Shown here: in pieces, positions 2,211 to 53,386 of the stretch | How the letters are laid out: each line of letters opens with the position of its first letter | Numbering within the stretch: the first letter of the stretch is position 1 | Notes under the pieces: generated by a model | What the model was told of the DNA's origin: nothing | Database searches by the model: none | What the model saw: only the letters and a program-made list of their open reading frames with translations | NCBI GenBank assembly: GCA_025786725.1 | Contig: JAHLTZ010000003.1 | Location: 1 to 64,000 of the forward strand | DNA from: Syncephalis fuscata | Taxonomy: Eukaryota; Zoopagomycota; Zoopagomycetes; Zoopagales; Piptocephalidaceae | Direction: 5' to 3' | Length of the DNA stretch: 64,000 nt | Translations under genes and position numbers: made by a program

Positions 2211-3450
2211 ATTATTAGAGCTCTGCTTGTAATAAAGATGGTTAGTTGTATTAGGAAAGCAGAAATAGTAAAAGATAGTGTTTAATAGGAAGAAAAAAAT
2301 AAAAGTGCTTATGTATCTCTTACTCAAACACGTATAGTGTATTAGTAGGAAACGTGAAAAGTCAAGTAGCGAAGAGTGAAGTGGTGGCAGTGGCAACGGT
2401 GTTGAGAAGATGCTGATAAAGCAACGAGCGCACGACCAAAAATGCTGGCTATAAGAAACAAAAAAGAATGGGAATGTCGGGGCAAACGTACAAGCGGAGT
2501 AAACACAACAATGCAACGTGTCGATGAGAACATTTTCGGCGGACAACCAGCCACTTTAAGTAATCCGCGCGAGTCTTTAGAACATGTGGACGTGGTTATT
2601 CTTTCCAGTCTTCCCAAAGGCTTCGTTCTTCCGTGACGCCTATTGAAAGTACGAGTTTGTCATACTAGAAGCGTCTTTTCCACTTGCGGCATATCAAATC
2701 TATTCATTGTGGTAGCACGGCTATCTATTTCTGTCCTTGCAACCACCTGATCTGCTTGTTCTTTTACAAATTTATTCAAGAGCGCCAATTAATGCTATGA
2801 CACTCAATTCCCCATCCTTCATTGCTTTTTAGGAATCTATTGATTTATTGATTACTGCTTGATAAGTCGCTGCCTCAGCAATAGCCGAAACGAGCACGAT
2901 ATAGCCATTAATAGCGACCATTTGTGTTGTAATATATTCGTCCAAACGTGCTACCATAGTGGTGCTAAGTAGCGGATCTATTGCAGCGGTTTGTTATACG
3001 GGCTCAGTCCATACAACAACCAAATTAGGGGCGATATTGCTAAAAGTGTACAAGCCGTGGACAATCAACAACGCAATTGTCTCGAAAACAATGGCCTGGG
3101 TTTACTAGAGCAAAGCTATTTTTGTCCGAACTTCAAGGGCCTGAGTTAATGTGCGACAATAGTGCGCCAATCGACGATGACTAGATTATAGTAGAGATAG
3201 CATTGCATGCTATAGATGACATTAAATATAACAATGTAAATGTGTGCATATTTTGGCAATCTATAAAAAACATTACAATTCTAAACCTTTTTTTTATTTT
3301 ACATTAATACTGGCAATCAAATACCCAGCTTATACGTAATTCTAGTTATATAAATATATAAACATTATATTTTATTAATTAATAAAGTTTAACGTTCTTT
3401 ACATCTACTTTGCGTACATTTTACATTGCTACATACTAACTAAATCCAGA
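2211..3450. other. Intergenic; no gene recognised
   Basis: This is the upstream region of the GH16 gene plus a stretch leading into the Fanzor relic. It holds short ORFs on both strands (for example 2442-2636 plus), but none shows a recognisable domain or a plausible splice extension. From about 3200 the sequence becomes strongly AT-rich. Confidence 0.5.
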
Positions 3451-3460
3451 TTCATTTATT

Positions 3461-4999
3461 ATGTTTTCAAATTCAATTCCGTTGCAGGTTAAGGCTGTAA
3501 AGTCTAGCATAACCGGAATTGGATGGAAGCCTAAGTATCTGAATCCTTTGGAACACTTAGTACTGTCGACACACTAGTCACTCATACATATCTTTTTCAC
3601 GATATATTTTTCTAAAAGAAATTGAGCTTAATAGTACCTTTAATAATGCTCCTTGTATCAACCAAAATGACTTTGCTCAAGCTTTTCTTTCACTTATAGC
3701 TCGTTTTTCCAATACAGGCTGCCTTAACGATAAAACAATAAAATTAAGAATGCTTGGATGAAGCAATAAAAATAGTTTTATTTAAAAATATTACAAAGCC
3801 TGCAGCCCATTTAAAACAACCATTTGCCTCTAAAAACCTAAGTAAAATCAGCTTAGATTAACAACCAATATGCGATATAATCAAGCCAATCTTTGACTTA
3901 TATCCACCGAATTACAAGTTTTTATCAGAATCCATATACTACAATGCTAAAGCTTGTCCTGAAAAAGACATGAATGCATATTATTAAATAGCTAAAATTG
4001 GTGAAGAAAGATATAAAAATAATTTACAATGCTTTCCTTTGCGCACATCTTAAATTCCTGGCTACATGCAGATTGCTACGTTTATTCTGTGTCAATGTAT
4101 TTCAGATGCAAATTCCGATAATTTTCCAGACAATAAAGATGCCTGGAGCCAAGTTGTCGATCTAAAAAAGGCATTTAAATCTAACAACAATCAACGTGGC
4201 TCTCTAAGTTTTCAAGGATTGATTTAAATATATGGTGCTGATGTCTCTATGTTAATGCATAACAAGAACAACAAAGATAGACTCAAACCAGGCAATGTTC
4301 AAAAAGAAGTTTAAAAAAACAGGTATGCTATCAACACATTGGTGGTATTAATAGAAATAATTTAATAGCAACTGCTGACAAGTGTGTATTAATTGATCCT
4401 GGAAAAAGAGACTTAATATATTTTGTGCATGAATTCAGCACCATTTAAGAGCCAACGACCTACAGATATACTTTAAATTAAAGACATTTTGATACTGGGA
4501 GTAAGAAGTATTGCAAAATCAAATTGGAGTTAAAATTAAAGTATCTCGATGTTTAAGAAAATAAAAATTTATTGTCTCAGTGTTGAATCAGATCTGTTGG
4601 TTTATTTAATTTTAAAAAATATCTCGCCGTTCGTGCTATTGCCTGCCAATCTCTAGCAACATAATACACGTTTTAAACAAATATAGGCTTTATCAAATAA
4701 AACTGGCTGTTTAAAAAACTAAAGCTAAATTTGTACACTAGACAACAACAAGCTAACCAAAAGCTTGTCAATAAGCTTAAATCCAAGTTTGATAGTGATG
4801 CTACTTTGATATTTGGTAACTGTTATGCTAGTCATGTAAAGTTTCAAAGACCCATTCGAGATGCTGGCTTGAAGCGTATAGTTCAAAAGAATGATTCTAA
4901 CGTGCTTTTAGTTGATGAGTATAACAGATCTAAAACCTGTCCCACTTGTCAAGCTCAAGGTTTACAATTTTATACGACAATGTCGAATACAATAATATA
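3461..4999 (+). pseudogene. Decayed Fanzor (eukaryotic TnpB-like RNA-guided nuclease) gene
   Basis: Reading the plus strand and ignoring stops gives the landmarks of a Fanzor1/OrfB protein in the expected order. The N-terminus has KAVKSSITGIGWKPKYLNP, then VTHTYLF and RYIFLKEIEL across a frameshift near 3600. About 4015-4070 reads CFPLRTS.IPGYMQI. About 4205-4250 reads SFQGLI, a stop, then YGADVSM. The RuvC-I segment at 4392-4430 reads LIDPGKRDLIYFVHE, with its catalytic Asp at 4395-4397. The zinc-finger/RuvC-III end at about 4912-4955 reads VDEYNRSKTCPTCQ. From 4383 to 4999 one frame is kept but broken by seven stops (six TAA, one TGA). The usual segment after the CPTC pair, with the second zinc-knuckle Cys pair, is missing. 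The intact family uses a guide RNA made from the element's 3' end. This copy is clearly inactive as protein. The family assignment rests on motif order, not on a search. Confidence 0.8.
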
Positions 5000-5084
5000 A
5001 ATAACAGCAATATTAAGTGGTTATATCTATTATGATTTACCATGAATAAATATAATAATATTCTTTTATTAAATTGGTATTTTT

Positions 5085-5885
5085 ATTTATAATTTTACGT
5101 ATAATCAGTAAATTGTCTAACATTTTACCCAAGTATGCACATAGCATATAGGTGACTATTGGCAAAGTATACCGCAATTGTATTAAGGGATAGTGTAATG
5201 GTTGCAATAATACGCTAAAAAATGTGTAAAAATAACAGTTTTTTGTCATTCATAGCTTATATAATTAACATATAGCAAAATAGCTGCCATATTCGAGTTT
5301 TCCATGCTTGGCTGTATCGTTTGGTATGACTTGTAGAACAATGATTTTTGCAAAATAAATTAGCCAAAAATGCAATTTACATGTAAATTAACAAAAAAAT
5401 GATAACTATAATTTTGGAAATTTAATGGTAAAAATGATATTTGGACTAAAATAGATTCAAAACGTTTTACAATACAATAATAATAATAATAGCAAGCTAG
5501 TATGCAAAATATTGATGTACGATGGAATCTATGGCATATACATATATTTATACGTAAAATTTCGTTAGCAAATATTTACGTAAATTGCATTTTGACTAAC
5601 ATTTTTTTGCAAAAATCATTGTTCCATATTTTCTATCAAACGGTACAGCTTAGCATGGAGAACTCGAATTTGGTAATCATTTTGCTGTATTTTGTTCATA
5701 CAAGTCATGAATGGCAAAAAACTGTTATTTTTGCATATTTATTAGCGTATTATTGCAACTATTACACTATCCCTTAATACAATTGCAGTATACTTTGCCA
5801 ATAGTCACCTATATGCTATGTGCATAATTGTACAAAATATCAAGCAATTTGCTTCATTATACGTAAAGTTATAAATAATATTATT
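5085..5885. repeat. Large imperfect palindrome (foldback element)
   Basis: The left arm (about 5085-5400) and right arm (about 5565-5885) are reverse complements of each other around a spacer of about 165 bp. One matched block is GCACATAGCATATAGGTGAC at about 5135-5155, which recurs inverted at about 5804-5824. Another is the pair around GGGATAGTGTAATGG... (about 5188) and its complement at about 5760. Divergence between arms is modest. It starts about 90 bp after the Fanzor relic. Short ORFs inside are products of the repeat and carry no recognisable domain. It resembles a foldback element or two inverted copies of one repeat. Confidence 0.8.
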
Positions 5886-9508: not shown

Positions 9509-10742
9509 ATATACATTTATCTGCTTAAAACTGCGTGTTTGTGTAATATGAATAAAAATAGTCAGTTATACACCCATTGTATATTATTCTTTTGTTTAAT
9601 CAATTTTTTGCGAAATAAATAACAATATTGTTGGCGTATCGGCTAATTAATATTACAAAGATGTTTATTTACGATGTTTATACTTTACCTTTATACATCG
9701 ATCTATATTAATAAAACGATAAATACACGATAAATATTATCTTTGCAACTTTACCACATTGTAACCTATTTACATACTAATATATATATAATAAAACGTA
9801 ACACTAAACAAACTAGACAAGCTTAAACTATAATCAATTAATAAATAAGATTAATGATTGCTATTTATTTTGCCCTCTTCCCCTATTTCAGCGTAATAAA
9901 TCTCTTTACGCAATCAATCTTAATGTTATTGTTTATTATTATTTTTATAAAATAAAATTAAATGTAACAGAAAACTGTATCAGTAATAATATTAAACATT
10001 TCAATAAAACTTACATTTTTAGCAATGTTATCAATAATTATTTAGTTGTTCTATTTGATTATCCTAGTGTTGTTGCACCAATACATACATGCTATATATC
10101 ATTTCATTTTTAATTTTAGCACTTGTTAATTGAATTAGATAAATTGCATCATCATATAAAATATTGCATGTTATTTAACATTATTATACAATCTAATTAA
10201 GTTTATTAGTTATTCTAGTATTATTTGTGGTTGCAATGGTTTTTTTTTAATAACACTCAATTTATTGAACATGATAGTGGATGGTGGATGACATTAGCCA
10301 TCAAATTATAATAATTTGAATACTTTACAGCAACAATAACATAAATTAACATTGATATATTTATAATATTTTATTGTAGTGACATGAAAATACTATTTAA
10401 TATCAATTTTGATATTGAAAATAGGATAAACTGGCTTAACTCCACTTGAATTAATTGAAGTTAATATAACACTACTTCAACAAATAACAGCTATTAGTAT
10501 TAAAAATTGATTGACGGTTTGTTATTCAAGTTATAAATCTTTTTGTTTAGTTTAAGGTTAAAGTACTCGAAATAAAATAGCTTATTTGTACATCATTAAC
10601 AATTACAGTTAATATTCTAGGTGCCAAAAATATCCATTTTATTCAATAAAATAGTATTCTAAAGCTAATGCATTGCCATATGCTCGATGTTAAAACAGGA
10701 GTGTTAAGAAGCCCAGCTTCTGTAATCATGCTAAAAGTCGTT
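9509..10742. other. Intergenic, very AT-rich, with one repeat end
   Basis: This lies between NBP35 and the 3' end of the convergent secreted-protein gene. There is no coding signal. It contains one end of the R1 repeat family (see 10158-10310). The rest is low-complexity A/T sequence. Confidence 0.6.
10158..10310 (+). repeat. R1 family, isolated left end
   Basis: The sequence runs through ACATTATTATACAATCTAAT to TTTATTGAACATGATAGTGG and GGTGGATGACATTAGCC. This is the same order of blocks as the left ends at 22790, 34860 and 42655. No matching right end is seen nearby, so it is a truncated copy. Confidence 0.6.
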
Positions 10743-11600
10743 TTAGTAAGCTGGAGCGGGAGTGTAAGGAGTAGATGGAGTAGATGGAGTGTAAGGAGTA
10801 GATGGAGTGTAAGGAGTAGATGGAGTATATGGAGTGTTATCACCGTTATTGTCATTGTTGTTGTCTTTATTGCCACCTTTGTAGTTGCTACCACCGCCGC
10901 TGCCGTGACCGCTGCCGTGACCGCTGCCGTGACCGCCGCCGTGACCGCTGCCTTTGCCTTTATACTTGTCACTATCGTTGTCATCATCATCATTCTCATC
11001 ATATTTGCCATTATCATCATCATTCCCATCATATTTGCCATTATCATCATTGTTGCTATCCTTATAGCTGTTGTTATGACTCTTCTTCTTCTTCTTCTTG
11101 TTCTTCTTAGGCTTTGGTTTACCCTCGGTCTCTTCTTTACATAGGCATGATCCGTCACTTTTTGCTCCATAAACACATGTTGTGGGTGAGGTAGGCTCGT
11201 TACAGCTATTGCTGGTAGAATTCATACCGTATTGGCATGTGTTGGTGTTATTGCCGGTGGTGGCACATTGACCATCGGGCCCCATACCATAGAGGCAAAC
11301 AGGCGGAGCAGATACGCAAGTATTGTCTTGATTTGTACCATAAGGACATTCAGGGCACGAAGGTCCTTTATCCATGCAGCTGCCATCCGTACGCATTCCG
11401 TATGGGCAGTAAGCATCTGTTGTTGGTGCTGGTGCCGGTACTGGCTCTGGTGCTGGTGCTGGTACTGGCTCTGGTGCTGGTGCCGGAGTACTTGTATAAT
11501 CACGACGCATAAAATGAGGTTGAGCATTTGATCCTACGGCAAGCATGGCAACTAGTACGCCAGCACTCATAAGTGTACTTAAACTGTAATGACTACGCAT
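10743..11600 (-). CDS. Secreted Cys-repeat / low-complexity wall-type protein
   Basis: A single exon encodes 285 residues. A signal peptide (about residues 1-26) is followed by MRR (possible dibasic processing site) and PAPEP repeats. Next come five copies of a Cys-bounded unit: CPYGMRTDGSC, CPYGTNQDNTC, CLYGMGPDGQC, CQYGMNSTSNSC and CVYGAKSDGSC. The C-terminal half is a Lys-rich block, Asp/Asn-rich acidic repeats, GSGHG repeats and TPYTPS repeats, ending in PAPAY. No known enzyme domain is seen. The architecture suggests an extracellular or wall structural protein. It shares its ends with the protein at 20902-22128: (M/V)RR.Y then T.APAP after the signal, and an aromatic-terminated Pro-rich tail. 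Internal repeats make the length liable to change between strains. Function is unknown. Confidence 0.85.
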   Translation of the reverse strand: MRSHYSLSTLMSAGVLVAMLAVGSNAQPHFMRRDYTSTPAPAPEPVPAPAPEPVPAPAPTTDAYCPYGMRTDGSCMDKGPSCPECPYGTNQDNTCVSAPPVCLYGMGPDGQCATTGNNTNTCQYGMNSTSNSCNEPTSPTTCVYGAKSDGSCLCKEETEGKPKPKKNKKKKKKSHNNSYKDSNNDDNGKYDGNDDDNGKYDENDDDDNDSDKYKGKGSGHGGGHGSGHGSGHGSGGGSNYKGGNKDNNNDNNGDNTPYTPSTPYTPSTPYTPSTPSTPYTPAPAY

Positions 11601-20901: not shown

Positions 20902-22128
20902 ATGAAGTTCATTCAAGCTGCTGTTCTTTTGGCCTTCGCTGCCACTGTTACTGCTACGCCAACATTTGTGCGTCGCTCATACAGCACTGCTCCTGCTCCA
21001 GGTGGTGAGTCCCCAGCTACTCCTGCTCCAAGCTACACTCCCGCCCCAACTCCAGGTGGTGAGTCCCCAGCTACTCCCGCCCCAAGCTACACTCCCGCCC
21101 CAGTTCCAGGCGGTGAGTCTCCAGCCACTCCTGCCCCAGGCTACATTCCCGCCCCAGTTCCAGGCGGTGAGTCTCCAGCCACTCCTGCTCCAGGCTACGG
21201 TGAAGCTCCTGCTCCAGCTGGTAACCAGACTTACACTCCAACTCCTGCTCCAGCTGGCAACCAGACTTACACTCCAACTCCTGCTCCAACTGGCAACCAG
21301 ACTTACACGCCAACTCCTGCTCCAGCTGGCAATCAGACTTACACGCCAACTCCTGCTCCAGGTGGTGAATCTCCATTCACTCCTGCTCCATACACTCCAA
21401 CTCCTGCTCCATACACTCCGACTCCGGCTCCATACACTCCAACGCCTGCCCCGTCTGGCAATGAAGACTATAACAATCAAACTCCAGCCACACCAGCACC
21501 TAAGAAATGCCACAAGAAGAAATACCCAGTAAAGCCCAAGAAATGCCACAAGAAGCCAGCTACTTACACTCCAACTCCAGCTCCATCTGGTAGCGAGAAC
21601 TATGGTGGCGAGACTCCAGCTACCTACACTCCAACTCCAGCTCCATCTGGTAGCGAGAACTATGGTGGCGAGACTCCAGCTACCTACACTCCAACTCCAG
21701 CTCCATCCGGTAGCGAGAACTATGGTGGCGAGACTCCAGCTACCTACACTCCAACTCCAGCTCCAGCTGGTAACGATACCTATGGCGGTGAGTCCCCAGC
21801 TACCTACACTCCAACTCCAGCTCCAGCTGGTAACCAGACCTATGGTGGCGAGTCCCCAGCTACTCCAGTTCCATGCAACAAGACCACTGGTGGTGAACTC
21901 CCAGCCACCCCAGCTCCATACACTCCAGCCCCAGTTCCAGCTGGTAACCAGACCTATGGTGGTGAGTCCCCAGCTACTTACACTCCAACTCCAGCTCCAG
22001 CTGGTAACCAGACCTATGGTGGCGAGTCCCCAGCTACTCCAGTTCCATGCAACAAGACCACTGGTGGTGAATTGCCAGCCACTCCAGCTCCTTACACTCC
22101 AGTCCCAGCTCCATACACTGCCTACTAA
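20902..22128 (+). CDS. Secreted PTPAP-repeat protein, wall-type
   Basis: A single exon encodes 408 residues. The signal peptide (about residues 1-19) is followed by FVRRSYSTAPAP. The mature protein is almost all Pro/Thr/Ala/Gly repeats: GGESPATPAP, AGNQTYTPTPAP, then three near-identical SGSENYGGETPATYTPTPAP units, then mixed units with PVPCNKTTGGELPATPAP. A basic Cys/Lys/His block (KKCHKKK...KPKKCHKKP, about residues 202-220) splits the chain. Many NxT sequons (NQT, NKT, NDT) and the Thr/Pro density predict heavy glycosylation. It ends VPAPYTAY. There are only four cysteines in two types of context (KKCHK, VPCNK). No enzyme domain is seen. Codon use is narrow (CCA, ACT, GCT), as in a highly expressed gene. 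It is likely an extracellular or cell-wall structural protein. Function is unknown. Confidence 0.88.
   Translation: MKFIQAAVLLAFAATVTATPTFVRRSYSTAPAPGGESPATPAPSYTPAPTPGGESPATPAPSYTPAPVPGGESPATPAPGYIPAPVPGGESPATPAPGYGEAPAPAGNQTYTPTPAPAGNQTYTPTPAPTGNQTYTPTPAPAGNQTYTPTPAPGGESPFTPAPYTPTPAPYTPTPAPYTPTPAPSGNEDYNNQTPATPAPKKCHKKKYPVKPKKCHKKPATYTPTPAPSGSENYGGETPATYTPTPAPSGSENYGGETPATYTPTPAPSGSENYGGETPATYTPTPAPAGNDTYGGESPATYTPTPAPAGNQTYGGESPATPVPCNKTTGGELPATPAPYTPAPVPAGNQTYGGESPATYTPTPAPAGNQTYGGESPATPVPCNKTTGGELPATPAPYTPVPAPYTAY
21560..21770 (+). repeat. 60-bp coding tandem repeat
   Basis: Three almost identical 60-bp copies (start of each marked by TACACTCCAACTCCAGCTCC) encode the SGSENYGGETPATYTPTPAP unit. 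The near-identity, including synonymous sites, points to recent expansion or gene conversion. Confidence 0.85.
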
Positions 22129-22789: not shown

Positions 22790-23660
22790 AGCAACTAAGG
22801 CATAACAGTGCGATTAAAGTCAATAATTGTATTTAACAATACTCACGCAATTTAATAACATTCAATCTATTGAATATGATGATAGGTGGTGAGTGATGTC
22901 AGGGTCCAAAATGCTCATCATCATAGATTCGTTATCCAATATGCAATATCCATCATTTATTTATATCATTCCCATTCTGTCCCACACTACTATGTATCAT
23001 TCTACGATACACTAGACACATTTTATTGTTTATATGTTCCATCAAACTTTACTCATTCCACTCATTACACTATATACACTGTAACTTTGCCACCACTTTT
23101 ATGATTTCTTACCGTACATTTATCATTTTATATATGATTCTATACTCGCCCAGTCTTACTTTATCCAAAACTATTTTTATTTTTGTTCTAGCACCATTAT
23201 TAACAAATATTGACTAGTTCCGCTCATTGATCATGCATACATGCTCATTAACTTTAACATAGCTAATCGCCATTTCACACCATAGATTCTTTATATTGTA
23301 TACCATTTTATTATCTAATAAATACGCGTTATCATTACATTTGTTTTTGGTTTTTTTGGTTTTAGCGCTATCACTAATGATCTCAACTCATTCACTTCAT
23401 GCATTTAGCAAGCTATATTTAATTGAGCATCTAACAATATGATATATTTTGTATAACATGGAATGATATATAGTAGTGTAAAATAGAATGGTAATGATAT
23501 AAATAAATGGTGGATATATGCATACTGAATAATGAATCTATGACGATGAGTATTTGATGATTAACGTCACTCACCACCCATCATCATGTTTAATAGAACA
23601 AATTGTACTTCAATTGCAGTCATTCGACCACCAAATCACAATCTATGTAATAGTTTGATT
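22790..23660. mobile_element. R1 element, complete copy with long terminal inverted repeats
   Basis: The left arm (about 22830-22990) reads through CTATTGAATATGATGATAGG, GGTGGTGAGTGATGTCAGGG, CATAGATTCGTTATCCAATA. The right arm (about 23470-23640) is its inverted match (CACTCACCACCCATCATCAT, AATGAATCTATGACGATGAG). The interior has no substantial ORF. Related copies lie at 10158, 18105, 18640, 34860-35480 and 42655-43255. It looks like a nonautonomous, MITE-like element. Confidence 0.7.
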
Positions 23661-25199
23661 ATTAAATGATAAATGGATAACACCAATCATCACATTTATC
23701 AGATTGTGGATTATTAATCTGTCCTTCATTATAGACAGCTTTTCTTTGAATCAATCAGTATTACACCAACACAGGTCATACACAATAACAATTAATACAC
23801 ACATATATAACTAATGTAAATCATTTTAAACACTGTCATTGATCAAGCAAACACAAAAAGTGGTCTACAATATTTGGATATCTATGATCGTGCATTAAAT
23901 CTAAAGAAAGGTATGCATAAATCAAGTGAATAGCATGCAATTCACTAAAGATAATAAGCAAAAAAAAACAAAAAAGATGCATTGAGATACAACCACAACT
24001 AAATAAAATAATGTTGGTAAATCTACAAAAAGAGTAGATTATCGAGTAGACTATTAGAAAGAGCGCGTGGGCTCACACACCTGTCCACTCGCTCACCACA
24101 TACGGAACTAGAAAAAGCACATTGAGAAAAGGAAACGGAAATAAAATAATGAAACTGGAAATTAGAAGGAATATGATATACAAAGTCATCGGGACCACAA
24201 GGCCATAGGCGAGCATAATGTATATATAGAATAGCCACGCCGCCGATATTACTCTAGACGATGTAGAGAATGAGAATGAGAGTGAGAAAGGAAAGAGGAG
24301 AGGAAAGTAAAGGAAACGGCTTGCATTGTAAGAGCAAGTAGAAAGCCTGTGCTCAAAGGCGCATGAGATGCGCAATATGGACCGGTGCGCCCGCGCATTC
24401 TAATCAAATAGTAATAATACTTATAATAATGATAATAATGATAATGATAATTATAGTTGTAATCCCAGTAATCTAACAAAGTAGACACCGATGAAGGTTA
24501 TATGACAGCCAATGATCGACGGAATGCCTGGAGTCCGGACTAGATTGGCTGTAGTGAACGAGAGTACGGCGCTGTACACCATAGAGTTGTCGTAGAAATA
24601 AACCGACGTATCCACACGGTAAAGGAGACTTGGCTGTCTAATCCAAATGGCCAGAAAAAAGACAGTAGTACCAAGGCTGGCCGGCCATTTACTATTCCAA
24701 GGTGATGGAAAATAGACAGCTCTAGACGTGGTAGCGGAGAATAGAAACCAGACAGGTCTACGCCACAAAAGGGACGCAACAATGGCACACGCACAAACAA
24801 CTGGGAATGCGCGGTGAAGCGAGAAAAAAGCAGCCTAATAAACCGTAAAGCTACTACTACTGCTACAACGCTGCCCTGTTCCTAACATGAGGAGAAAAGG
24901 GACGTGTGCCACTAGGATGATGTGCAGTACAGGCACACTACAGTGCAGCGCAGAGCAATTTCACGCGGCATAGAACAGGCCACGTAGAAAGCTTACCACC
25001 ATCATGAATGACGACCTGTCTATCATGTAATCACGCGGTAAGCTGCAAAACTTAAGCGGAAACTGGGAAAGGCACTGAGAAAATACGGAATAGGTGAAAG
25101 GAAACAGAAGTAGATTTTTTAACACTGAAAAGTAGAAGGAAAAGAGAAATGAATAAACACAGTCGTAGTGTGACTATGTTTTTGATCACAAAGGCGCGC
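23661..25199. other. Intergenic and probable 3' flank of the zinc-finger gene
   Basis: From about 24000 the minus strand is pyrimidine-rich with many overlapping ORFs of 70-118 codons in several frames. None has a recognisable domain. The region may be a long 3' UTR of the Mig1/CreA-like gene. Confidence 0.45.
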
Positions 25200-34859: not shown

Positions 34860-35480
34860 TCATTTAACATTATTATATAATTACTTTTATAAACAATTTA
34901 TTAAAATTTAGTATGATTTGGGGGTCAAATGACTACATTTAATAATGTTCGTGCAACTGAACTAACATTCGCTCTAATAAACATGGAACTGGGTAGTGAA
35001 TGACGTCAATCATCAAATACTCATCATCATAGATTTATTATCCAGCATGCATATACTCAGTACACATATGTACTTTATTCACATATATGTTTTAATTGCA
35101 TCTCTACACCACCATATATCATTCTATGATATACTAGACACATCCTATTGTTTACATACCGCAATATACTTTCTTTACTCCATCCACTACGCTATATACA
35201 CTATAACCTAAACGCCGATTATCATACACTTTTCATTGTCTATTCATCATTTTATTTATCATTCTATACTCTCCTAGCCTTCCTCTATTCAAAACTGTTT
35301 TTATTTTTGTTCTAGCTTTATTATTTATAAATCTCGACTCATTTCGACTCATCTGCTCATGCATATATGCTCAATAATCAACACAACCGATCGTATACTT
35401 TTCCGCCTATCCATTCGGCTATTTATCGTTTCGTTATTATATAACAGCTACTCACTATCTAGTTTTACTAAAGCCAGTGC
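34860..35480 (+). mobile_element. R1 element, left end plus interior
   Basis: The left end (TTAATAATGTTCGTGCAACT, CATGGAACTGGGTAGTGAAT, ATAGATTTATTATCCAGCAT) is followed by the same interior blocks as the copy at 22790 (TATCATTCTATGATATACTAGACACAT at about 35120, then TTTTTATTTTTGTTCTAGC at about 35295). No right inverted repeat is found, so it is 3'-truncated or diverged. The region from 35480 to 36287 is A/T-rich with no gene. Confidence 0.6.
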
Positions 35481-36287
35481 GATTATAGCGATGACAGTTG
35501 CACTCATCTTCATATAGCACAGACTATATGCGCTACACTTATTCATATTCTATTACTTTCCATTATTTTACCCCACAACTGTTTCTTTCTATTTCTTGAT
35601 CACTTACAATCTGCATTCTTTATTCATTATATTCTACATACACTTATGACGGTAAGTAGATCCCACTATATGCGCGTCACACTTGAACCAGTCTTTTCCA
35701 TCATTCGTATAGTCATGCTTGTTTGCTTGTTTTGTTGTTATTATCTATATGGATACTATCTTATTGTTTACAGTATACAGCTTGCTTGTATGCTAGTCAT
35801 CTACACTCTATGCCTTTTTAATGCTGCTTACACATAGCGTCTACTGGGCTGCGTTATTCTACCACTCACTACAGTCATTGAATAACAGTCTGTATATATG
35901 CACAGTATATGCATATACTCTTATTAATATTGAATAGTATTTGTATTCGTATTGTATATATATAGTACTACACTATTCGTTATTGTTTTTGTTGTTGTCT
36001 ATTGCTGCCTCATTGCTATGGATCTTTTATTGCATTGTGTTGATATTGGTAGTAACTATAATAGCAACAACTATACTAGTAGATTACATCTATACAGTAT
36101 TATATTCCTTTCCACCTATCTGTTTATATGTACATTATCTATGCTCGTTGTTATTGTTATGTGTATGCATTTTATTTGGTGTGTGGTGGGATATTTGGGA
36201 CGTATATGTGGCCAAACGGCAACATTTGTAGTATATTCTACGTAAATTAAAATTACGAATGACCTGCAAACAACTGCTTCCACTCTA

Positions 36288-36404
36288 ACTACGTTCATTG
36301 CGCCTAGAAAGCACCGGATCCCGTCCGATCTCCGAAGTTAAGTTAGGCCGCGCTTCTGTAGTACTGCGGTGGGGGACCACGCGGGAATGAGAAGTAATGT
36401 AGTT
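36288..36404 (+). rRNA. 5S ribosomal RNA
   Basis: About 117 nt. The internal control region and loop sequences are clear: AAAGCACCGGATCCCGTCCG, ATCTCCGAAGTTAAG, AGTACTGCGGTGGGGGACCA and GCGGGAAT. The ends pair to form helix I (AACTACGTT with AATGTAGTT, one G-U). It is a single dispersed copy rather than part of an rDNA array. It is on the same strand as the tRNA that starts 7 nt later. Confidence 0.93.
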
Positions 36405-36411
36405 TCAGTAT

Positions 36412-36482
36412 GCGTAGTTGGTTTAGTGGTATAATTACCGCCTGCCACGCGGTAGACCGGGGTTCGATTCCCCGACTACGCA
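36412..36482 (+). tRNA. tRNA-Gly (anticodon GCC)
   Basis: 71 nt, no intron. The acceptor stem is GCGTAGT paired with ACTACGC, discriminator A. A box reads TTTAGTGGTATAA, B box GGTTCGATTCC. The anticodon loop is CTGCCAC with GCC. CCA is not encoded, as usual in eukaryotes. It begins 7 nt after the 5S rRNA end. Confidence 0.95.
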
Positions 36483-42388: not shown

Positions 42389-42654
42389 AGTGAGCAGTTG
42401 CTGTTGGTAATGGTAAAACAATAAGACAACAGGATGACCAAGAGATAAAAATGTACGTGGACGTGAACACTGTCTTATCGAGATCTATAGATGCTGAGAC
42501 ATGATTGGCTGGTGCATTTTGTTAACACTGTGTCTGGTTTGATGGTAAAACTGTAGCAAGATGACCATCTTACGGTTACCTTGCTACATCTATGCGACCA
42601 ATAGATACGGCTATGCCGCCATAGCTACTTGAGCGCGTAAAGTAAAATAAAATA

Positions 42655-43255
42655 AAGAAAAATATTGTGTATTATTTAACATTATTATACGATCTAATTG
42701 AATTTATTAGCCATTTAGTATGATTTGTAGTTAAAATAGCTATTTTAATAACATTTAATCTATTAAACATAACATATCATTCTACGATATACTAGGCACA
42801 TTCTATTGTTTATATGTTCTATTAAACCTCACTCATTTCATTTATTGCATTATATACAATATAACTTTAACACTGTTTTATATGCATTCTTACTGTATAT
42901 TTATCACTTTTTATATTATTATATATTCGCATAGTCTTTCTGTATCAATAATTACTTTTATTTTTGTCCTAGCACCATTATTAACAAATGTCGACTAATT
43001 CCGCTCATTGATCATGTATGCATGCTCAATATTGTATATGCATTATAATGTTTATTATTTTATTAGTTATGATTTGAATGTTAATCAAGCAAAGTAATGG
43101 GTATACATAGTAAGTACACATACGGTGATTATATATGCATATTGGATAATGAATCTCCAATGCTAAGTATTTAATAACTGATATCATTCACCACCCATCA
43201 TCATGTTCAATAGTAAGAATGTTACTAAGTGTTAGTCATTTAACCACCAAACAAA
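42655..43255. mobile_element. R1 element with a shortened left arm
   Basis: The left end (ACATTATTATACGATCTAAT, ATTTAATCTATTAAACAT) passes directly into interior sequence (CATATCATTCTACGATATAC), so part of the left arm is deleted. The right arm at about 43130-43250 (ATTCACCACCCATCATCATG, GTCATTTAACCACCAAAC) is intact. It lies between the divergent LYS9 and NMD3 genes. Confidence 0.65.
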
Positions 43256-43261
43256 CAATAA

Positions 43262-43540
43262 ATGGTTAATAAATTGTTTAATATTAGTGTATTGAAAATA
43301 GTATAAATAAATTGCTGATGTTATTGTTAAAATGAGCAATGTCAGTGCAGTTGTATTAAATGTGACTAATTGCAACATGTTAATATCTGTAAAAAGACAT
43401 TATTCTATTTAATTAATAACGAAAGAATAAATAGGGTGACATATTGTTGCTGTTCTACTTGGAGAGTTGAAGTAAAATTTGAGCTCCACATCTTTTATTT
43501 CCAAAAAAGTAGGGGCTCAAAGTAAAATAGTTTCCTTAGT
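43262..43540 (+). repeat. R2 family, partial copy
   Basis: Blocks TGTTATTGTTAAAATGAGCA and TAATTGCAACATGTTAATAT match about 51360-51430. It ends GGGGCTCAAAGTAAAATAG, the R2 right-end motif. It directly abuts the R1 element. Confidence 0.5.
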
Positions 43541-51742: not shown

Positions 51743-53386
51743 TTAGTGTTGCATCGAGTGTAGTTGTTTATTGATAGACTCTGAGATTCGTTGATCAATA
51801 CCAGCCAGGCCCATATAAGGAATACGCAAGATAGGATGTGAAGGCATATTTGGTCCTGAAACTGGAGTGAAGACAATATAGCCAGAATAAAATGAATCCA
51901 AGTGTGTATCAAGTCCGGATGGCTCAGCAATAGACACTTGCACAATAGCATTTCCATGTTTTTTAATAGTGATCGTGCTGGGTCTTATGTTTACTAGAGA
52001 ATATTTAGGGATATATCTAGCAGGGGAATATGGAGTTCCACCAATATCATATTGCTTAATTGACATTGAAGTCTCGAAAGTAATATGAAATTGCATATCA
52101 AAATTGCCATTGTTTAAAATATTAACTGCTTTTGCTTGTGGACTTCCCGGGCTGGGCTTTCTAGCTTGGTTATCTCCCAAAAAGATTGCCGTAGTGTCTA
52201 AAGTACATTTGTTATGGATTGCATTGTATAGGTTGGCAAATCCAGCACCCTGAAAAACAACGGATTCCTTAGCCTGGCTGTAATTGATCAGCGTGGCAGT
52301 TGAGGTGAAAATTGATTTTAAATATTCTACTGACGAACGATGGGCCTGTTTAGCTTTAATCAACTGTGCCATCATACCGGCAAAATAAGCAGCGGCTATA
52401 GACGGATCTGAGGATTTTACATAAAGATTTCCTGAGTTGATTTTAGGTACCGGTACATTAATGCCTGGTGCAACGATATCGGCACTTTGTCCCACCCATT
52501 GTCTATAAGGTCTGCGGAGTATCTTTTCAGCTGAAATGGCACCATTTGATAGAACTTCGGCAGAGCCTACAGTAATAATAGGTATATCGATAGGTAGCTT
52601 GTAGTCTGATCTTAAAGTTGTAACAAACGATTTATCCATTCTGGGCCAAATAGCATCCCAAATGTCCATGATACTTGACTGGCCTACAGGTGAAATAAGC
52701 GTTATACCAGATGAAGCAAGGCGAACAAGATTAATAAGAAGCTTTCCATTGAATTCTGGTTGAGGCTGAATATCTAAAGGCAGCACAACTATATCAACAC
52801 CGTCATTATACGCTCTGTCTAAAGCATTTGCAACAACGCTGGCAGTTGTATGTCCACGACATCCTTTTACGCGGTAAGACATAATCCTTGCATGGGGAGC
52901 AACGCCTTTAAATAGAGCTGCGTCGCTAGCAATGAGACCTGCTAACATTGTGCCTCGGCCATGGCAGTCACCAGTAGTGGAACCGGGGGTTGGCGTATTG
53001 GTTCCGTCAAAGTTATCTCCAACCAAGTCGACTTGAACAGCCTTAATTCTTGATGATGCTAATGCTTCATGTTGTATATCAACACCGCTATCAAGGATAG
53101 CTATACGATAGCTTTGAGTGCTTATTTTTTCGCCATGTGCATAGGCTACACCAGTAATTTCATGAATTTTATTAATTCCAGGTTGGAATGATAAGTGGCC
53201 ATTGTCACGTCTTTCTCGGTGGACAGTTTGAGCCTCTAATTGCTCTTTTTTATAATTGTAAAATGATGAAATTGTGTCATTTGAAAACAAGGCTGTTTGC
53301 TCCAAAGATTGAGCGCTAATGCTTTTTGCTGCTGTATAATGCGCAAGCAATAGGACAATAGCTACCGTGACTCTAGAAAATGCCAT
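51743..53386 (-). CDS. Secreted subtilase-like protein lacking the catalytic His (pseudoprotease)
   Basis: A single exon encodes 547 residues. A signal peptide (about 1-20) and a short pro-region end at a dibasic site (RERR, 57-60). The S8 fold follows: the Asp motif IAILDSGVDIQHEAL (D99), VGDNFDGTNTPTPG, then the His motif as DCHGRGTMLAG, where the catalytic His is Arg144. FKGVAPHARIMSYRVKGC follows. The oxyanion-hole region reads SPVGQSS, so Gln236 stands for Asn. The Ser motif is SSDPSIAAAYFAG: Ser329 is kept but the GTS and the Pro are not. The C-terminal half resembles the Fn3-like domain of Vpr/C5a-peptidase-type subtilases. The whole ORF is open, so it is a retained protein rather than a decayed gene. 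It is probably a binding or inhibitor-like protein, or has unusual chemistry. Confidence 0.88.
   Translation of the reverse strand: MAFSRVTVAIVLLLAHYTAAKSISAQSLEQTALFSNDTISSFYNYKKEQLEAQTVHRERRDNGHLSFQPGINKIHEITGVAYAHGEKISTQSYRIAILDSGVDIQHEALASSRIKAVQVDLVGDNFDGTNTPTPGSTTGDCHGRGTMLAGLIASDAALFKGVAPHARIMSYRVKGCRGHTTASVVANALDRAYNDGVDIVVLPLDIQPQPEFNGKLLINLVRLASSGITLISPVGQSSIMDIWDAIWPRMDKSFVTTLRSDYKLPIDIPIITVGSAEVLSNGAISAEKILRRPYRQWVGQSADIVAPGINVPVPKINSGNLYVKSSDPSIAAAYFAGMMAQLIKAKQAHRSSVEYLKSIFTSTATLINYSQAKESVVFQGAGFANLYNAIHNKCTLDTTAIFLGDNQARKPSPGSPQAKAVNILNNGNFDMQFHITFETSMSIKQYDIGGTPYSPARYIPKYSLVNIRPSTITIKKHGNAIVQVSIAEPSGLDTHLDSFYSGYIVFTPVSGPNMPSHPILRIPYMGLAGIDQRISESINKQLHSMQH

Follow-up and report, generated by a model that had tools for sequence, protein, structure and literature searches.

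The window, that is, the whole 64,000-nucleotide stretch of Syncephalis fuscata DNA analysed here, carries on its plus strand a sequence that is almost certainly the relic of a Fanzor1 gene, a dead gene as judged from its sequence. Our reading of the whole, which we hold with good though not full confidence, is that this dead copy is truncated at both ends and that elsewhere in the genome outward-pointing 3′ fragments of Fanzor lie beside many subtilase-like genes, at a few loci on both sides, and may act as long inverted repeats. The relic itself is ordinary, and the company of subtilase-like genes is the new part. The following features of the element family were located in the window:

3185 to 3417, plus strand: 5′ leader of the Fanzor element; 3185 to 3305 is common with the C201 copy (85%)
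3461 to 4967, plus strand: Fanzor1 pseudogene, whose reading contains 12 in-frame stops and 4 frame changes; beyond 4967 there is no family homology
4395 to 4397, plus strand: codon of the first RuvC Asp (in IDPGKRDL), kept; aligned to SpuFz1 D383, by hand count from the alignment
4917 to 4919, plus strand: codon of the RuvC Glu (in DEYNRS), kept; aligned to SpuFz1 E541, by hand count from the alignment
4938 to 4949, plus strand: initial half of the zinc ribbon (CPTC); the window copy lacks the other half and the third RuvC Asp
42545 to 42669, minus strand: lone right end of the relic's element family with a terminal hairpin; profile E 9.5e-19, outer end towards lower coordinates

Five Fanzor landmarks had been named in the original prediction, and all of them were found in the window sequence where it had placed them, on the plus strand and in the right order, though in different frames: VTHTYLF at 3577–3597, RYIFLKE at 3600–3620, CFPLRTS at 4030–4050, IDPGKRDL at 4392–4415 and the C-terminal box DEYNRSKTCPTC at 4914–4949. 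The fungal host that it had supposed is S. fuscata, a member of the Zoopagales (Zoopagomycota). When the translated region was searched against the PDB with its stops masked as X, the middle piece (piece 2) matched Parasitella parasitica Fanzor1 (PpFz1) with E 1.8e-18 and SpuFz1 with E 1.2e-4, the C-terminal piece (piece 3, 219 aa) matched the same two proteins with E 5.5e-21 and 6.5e-15, and these separate searches returned solely Fanzor1. The pieces joined into a read-through of 503 residues matched six proteins at E ≤0.001, with P. parasitica Fanzor1 at the top (E 3.3e-60). The identification as a Fanzor1 relic rests on these matches to solved structures and on that of the read-through, so the proposed relic of an RNA-guided nuclease held up, and neither a lack of match nor a match to another family was seen. 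Because the matches are to Fanzor1, a Fanzor2 or IS607-type element with a serine recombinase is unlikely. A bacterial-type TnpB or another transposase could have a similar motif order, which is common to TnpB and Fanzor (PMC3627910), but with PDB matches of both pieces to Fanzor1 alone and the Parasitella Fanzor1 as best protein match, the chance of this is close to nil. A Pfam scan of the three pieces gave no match for pieces 1 and 2, and the zinc-ribbon model scored the relic at E 0.099, below the cut-off, because half of the ribbon is missing; this hint was given no weight as evidence for Fanzor identity.

In an alignment with the proteins P0025 (PpFz1, PDB 9cf0), P0026 (a metagenomic protein), P0027 and P0029, the relic was seen to retain its N-terminal region, FPLRTS, the first CxxC and, of the RuvC residues, the first Asp and the Glu; the catalytic residues of SpuFz1 are D383, E541 and D606 (PMC11423790). 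The VTHTY and YIFLKE region, FPLRTS, IDPG-RD and the E-S zinc-ribbon box follow one another in PpFz1 just as in the relic, at about a third identity, but the relic is dead and lacks the RuvC-internal insertion that P0025 and P0027 have. P0026 and P0029 are also without it, and P0026 is about as close to the relic as PpFz1. We take the insertion of P0025, by its position, to be the FRI domain, which binds cyclophilin in PpFz1 (PMC11423790).

The window copy has no intact open frame: as read here, it is interrupted by 12 stops and 4 frame changes, which make it a relic. Other copies are homologous to it between about 3418 and 4967, and the leader starts at 3185, so the earlier extent of 3461–4999 had to be corrected, as 4968–4999 is not Fanzor. 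Both the remaining half of the C4 zinc ribbon and the third RuvC Asp would lie beyond the break at 4967. Other copies go on past this point, through the second ribbon half and for some 500 bp more up to a terminal structure in those that keep it, so the loss of the two is a lesion of the window copy. The left end of this copy was also lost, because its likeness to the C201 copy stops left of 3185. No Fanzor-family sequence was found at the relic left of 3185 or right of 4967, and the copy is truncated at both ends and has no function as a protein now. To the right of 4967 come about 115 bp without a match and then a long imperfect palindrome (5083–5878, 76% to its own reverse complement), which has relatives at no fewer than 26 other places by hand count (40 of 264 candidates scored) and may be a terminal-repeat element derived from a Mutator-like element (MULE). 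On C264 one of its relatives has a MULE transposase domain at a distance of about 1 kb. Two other open reading frames of the window, 20902–22128 (plus strand; no Pfam match) and 10743–11600 (minus strand), have a hydrophobic start followed by Pro/Thr/Ala-rich repeats.

A DNA search of the genome gave at least 26 Fanzor-family places. The three longest (window, C201 and C68) stand alone, 22 shorter ones are 3′ fragments that adjoin a subtilase-like gene or a piece of one, and the remaining one (C245:497214) is a 3′ fragment without such a gene. A protein search with P. parasitica Fanzor1 gave 40 matches. The original prediction had reasoned that active copies exist or existed, and for copies active today it found no support in this family: neither the 26 DNA places nor the 40 protein matches included an intact copy spanning the gene in one open frame, and no intact copy elsewhere in the genome was seen in the places examined. 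A second Fanzor lineage at C24 and C244, whose longest stop-free frames on the gene's strand were 144 aa, is by our own reading of the sequence also broken; for C24 this is at odds with the search table, which gives an open frame of 434 aa. A search for the zinc-ribbon family gave 40 places, none of which coincided with the 26 Fanzor places and which presumably belong to other Fanzor or TnpB-like lineages; ten of the 40 were inspected, for frames only. One locus of such another lineage (L010, 1486–1779 on C230) has both ribbon halves and a QRDVN box, and within the locus no upstream frame of 70 aa or more was present on the ribbon's strand.

The 3′ fragments are mostly about 0.5–1.2 kb and often extend to the right end of the element. 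The right ends of 11 copies gave the profile that detected the lone end in the window, 38 kb from the relic, so the supposition that a 3′ end may survive nearby was borne out in this detached form, while none was found beside the relic. A 22-base right-end pattern with up to three mismatches matched nowhere in the window, the lone end departing from it at a larger number of sites, and a DNA search with the lone end matched only itself and C68. An AT-rich dispersed repeat occurs at 42659–43283, 10158–10272, 22995–23250, 23514–23664 and 35116–35376 and at many of the fetched loci. The outer flank of L027 resembles the 3′ flanks of the subtilase-like genes, but a shared gene flank was rejected, as a related AT-rich repeat recurs in the window. 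The left end was defined less well by the same comparison: the profile found a single inverted copy, on the left side of the C201 element (E 0.0012), besides weaker end-like sequences (E 0.0017 to 0.3) that lie upstream of the L021, L022, L023 and L032 fragments. We aligned the C201 left end directly to five end sequences with 200 shuffles, and only the C112 end-like sequence exceeded the shuffles (score 55 against at most 36); scores with four true right ends were not above them.

The last hairpin of the right end had 91.7% of cells paired over six ends, with four of its eight pairs changed on both sides, and 14–33 of 500 shuffles reached the observed measures. This is suggestive, on few sequences, and would fit a hairpin in DNA or RNA. 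When five right ends were folded as single DNA strands, the window end alone was clearly below its shuffles (z −3.7; the others −0.3 to −1.3). An Rfam scan of the whole window found just a 5S rRNA and a tRNA, which are a 5S rRNA gene and the tRNA gene directly after it, at 36287–36482. At two loci (L025 at about 2960 and L028 at about 580), right ends without the last hairpin are followed by 42–52 bp that resemble the start of the subtilase 3′ flank.

The association with subtilase-like genes is directional. All 23 fragment rows beside a gene point away from it, near-identical loci and one 54-bp piece included. A Fanzor fragment was found at 18 of the 29 loci of this subtilase-like (PF00082) gene family, and at four loci (C109, C13, C112:757 and C242, the last with the 54-bp piece) fragments lie on both sides of the gene. 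The 29 loci are a lower bound, merged by hand from places of 46% identity or more (of 153 candidates, 82 were scored). The other 11 have no fragment, so part of the family's growth took place without Fanzor; three of these (C231, C124:89387 and C135:341297) were counted as fragment-free since the DNA search found none there, their sequences being outside those read.

Eight members have long ORFs of 500–616 residues, five of them 613–616, and the ORFs at L046, L047 and L050 were shortened at the 3′ end by a frame change, so that the open part alone was used. All eight have, by eye, an N-terminal hydrophobic stretch like a signal peptide. Pfam found Peptidase_S8 in one member (E 1.1e-11), and the nearest PDB match of another was an S8 family serine peptidase (E 3.1e-12). 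The differences at codon positions 1, 2 and 3 were 24, 17 and 30%, dN/dS (NG86) was 0.35–0.57 in the 28 pairs, and these ORFs are under purifying selection. In an alignment to Savinase, which was typed in as a yardstick, the catalytic His was Arg in all eight while Asp and Ser were kept, so none has the full Asp-His-Ser triad of an active peptidase S8, and the oxyanion Asn was kept in seven, with Asp in L046. Loss of the catalytic Ser was ruled out by the same alignment. P0011 of S. fuscata and P0012 of S. pseudoplumigaleata keep the catalytic His. The genes are thus probably inactive or altered proteases retained by selection. Four of the eight ORFs (L041, L044, L045 and L047) adjoin a Fanzor fragment. 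The window has a distant relative of the Fanzor-flanked family at 51743–53386 on the minus strand (PF00082, E 6.9e-19), in which the alignment puts Arg in the place of the catalytic His and Gln in that of the oxyanion Asn. Subtilases of Zoopagomycota mycoparasites are mostly single-domain PF00082 proteins and are expanded in Syncephalis pseudoplumigaleata and its relatives (PMC6784888); the parts of that paper available to us make no tie to transposons, and the S. fuscata family differs from them in its His-to-Arg change.

The fragments show fixed 5′ breaks. The break at window position 4434 is common to eight fragment rows and that at 4645–4647 to another eight (two of which are one place), each with shared upstream sequence. 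The constraint test covered 23 fragment rows, of which one was unaligned (the locus was cut, and it is the same place as another row), and the distances rest on the 17 left after removal of the window row and five near-identical ones; the fragments at C227, C112:866674 and C226 were outside this set. Differences at codon positions 1, 2 and 3 among the 17 copies were 17.4, 13.9 and 13.5%, with a median K of 0.19. The fragments are without coding constraint, and the lack of a third-position excess means that they spread after the Fanzor gene had died.

Two kinds of rearrangement were seen among the gene loci as assembled. At C109 and C13, which are 99.5% identical with matching flanks, the gene between the Fanzor-derived arms is inverted:

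L028, 670 to 4917, and L029, 2994 to 7239: near-identical loci (C109 and C13) with the gene inverted between Fanzor-derived arms

The 703-bp arms show two differing sites at one locus (C109) and one at the other, and the inversion could be what is expected from recombination between arms or an assembly artefact. The genes at L043 (1177–3024) and L045 (1177–3024), about 7 kb apart on C112, are identical over the first 1050 bp or so and then about 70%, so they are mosaics made by recombination or conversion. Over ten loci the fragments had an identity of 0.81–0.86 against 0.70–0.80 for the adjoining genes, and gene and fragment distances were uncorrelated (Mantel r 0.10 and 0.13, p 0.31 and 0.25), which together argue against simple joint transposition. 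In the same ten loci, distances of the gene's 3′ flank correlated with those of the fragment (r 0.49, p 0.0014) and of the gene (r 0.36–0.37, p 0.01). One reading is repeated exchange between loci, in which the Fanzor ends act as shared arms that correct each other.

Originally the Fanzor1 gene was probably the only gene of a small S. fuscata transposon bounded by terminal repeats, and the intact protein would, by analogy with its relatives, have been a nuclease guided by RNA from the element's own right end. As long inverted repeats, the 3′ fragments would allow recombination and inversion of the genes they enclose, and a cassette of this kind may formerly have been able to transpose with a transposase in trans. 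That the ends play such an active part, and are not passengers, is in our judgement just short of an even call. The more specific proposal that a dead Fanzor right end was recruited as a recombination handle, by which secreted protease-like genes flip, exchange segments and spread, is rather improbable; at first, exchange may even have been driven by the nuclease cutting at such ends.

The strongest alternative is that the fragments are passengers, a Fanzor having landed by a subtilase-like gene whose family then grew by duplication and gene conversion. We consider this a real possibility, though one we lean against. The 11 fragment-free gene loci, the same fixed junctions at many loci, the inter-locus exchange seen in the gene mosaics and the tracking of the fragment by the gene's 3′ flank all agree with it. 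However, a fragment older than the divergence of the genes should have a K near their synonymous divergence, which was about 0.55 in most of the 28 pairs (only four of those eight genes have a fragment), and the observed median was far lower, which argues against passengers. The two-sided fragments would also call for several landings or else for a mobile unit.

Another alternative is a Mutator-like element with long terminal repeats and a captured gene, mobilized by a transposase in trans, as Pack-MULEs have long terminal repeats that carry a captured gene. The genome has 14 matches to MULE transposase domains, of which four are nearly full-length (98 of 99 positions) and without a stop, and the Fanzor1 genes of Rhizopus, Phycomyces and Mucor lie inside MuDR-like elements with 9-bp duplications (PMC3627910). 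But among the copies read (the ends at C229, C190:394258 and C124:111514 are not among these) none had two complete ends in which a target duplication could be seen, and no transposase carrying Fanzor-family ends was found; we regard this origin as unlikely. Still less probable is one-ended rolling-circle spread as by Helitron2 transposons, which would leave 5′-truncated copies sharing a hairpin 3′ end. Such spread was reported for Fanzor1 in Chlamydomonas, where CRe-1 to -3 have the same pattern (PMC3627910), and it would fit the over-represented 3′ parts, the truncated 5′ parts and the hairpin at the right end. The inverted right-end copy at the left of C201 speaks against it, as do the 703-bp arms, which are unlike Helitron ends, and the Helitron N-terminal family PF14214 had no match in the genome, a weak point since 14 controls were equally silent.

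Fanzor1 elements, 5′-truncated copies and ghost ends were already known (PMC10432273, PMC3627910, PMC10711439), and the S. fuscata family, with its fragments read as outward-pointing repeats around genes, can be set beside two of them. Spu-1 of Spizellomyces punctatus, which encodes SpuFz1, is a small element with the Fanzor1 gene alone between inverted repeats, and 134 "ghost" loci keep its ends without the gene (PMC10432273). In S. fuscata, in contrast, many end-keeping loci carry a subtilase-like gene, and no intact Fanzor was seen. Copies of MCi-2 in Mucor circinelloides have a common 3′ part and, as here, vary in the 5′ part, but they are 99% identical and encode Fanzor (PMC3627910), whereas the S. 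fuscata copies are old (median K 0.19) and mostly consist of the 3′ part. A full-text search, of which supplements and closed papers were not part, found no paper on Fanzor together with Zoopagomycota, and in the literature searched, supplements excluded, we found no description of Fanzor ends around a host gene family.

These results place Fanzor1 in the Zoopagomycota and link the ends of its element to subtilase-like genes, in a phylum whose mycoparasites have expanded subtilases (PMC6784888). Syncephalis species are mycoparasites, as is the host of PpFz1 (PMC11423790, PMC6784888), and Fanzor was suggested to aid gene transfer in mycoparasites, so S. fuscata offers a second mycoparasite, from another phylum, for testing this suggestion (PMC11423790). 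If the ends do drive recombination, the DNA of a Fanzor element would have found a use after the death of its nuclease. If, further, they serve as recombination handles, the ends of an RNA-guided nuclease element would be a generator of diversity for the secreted proteins of the parasite.
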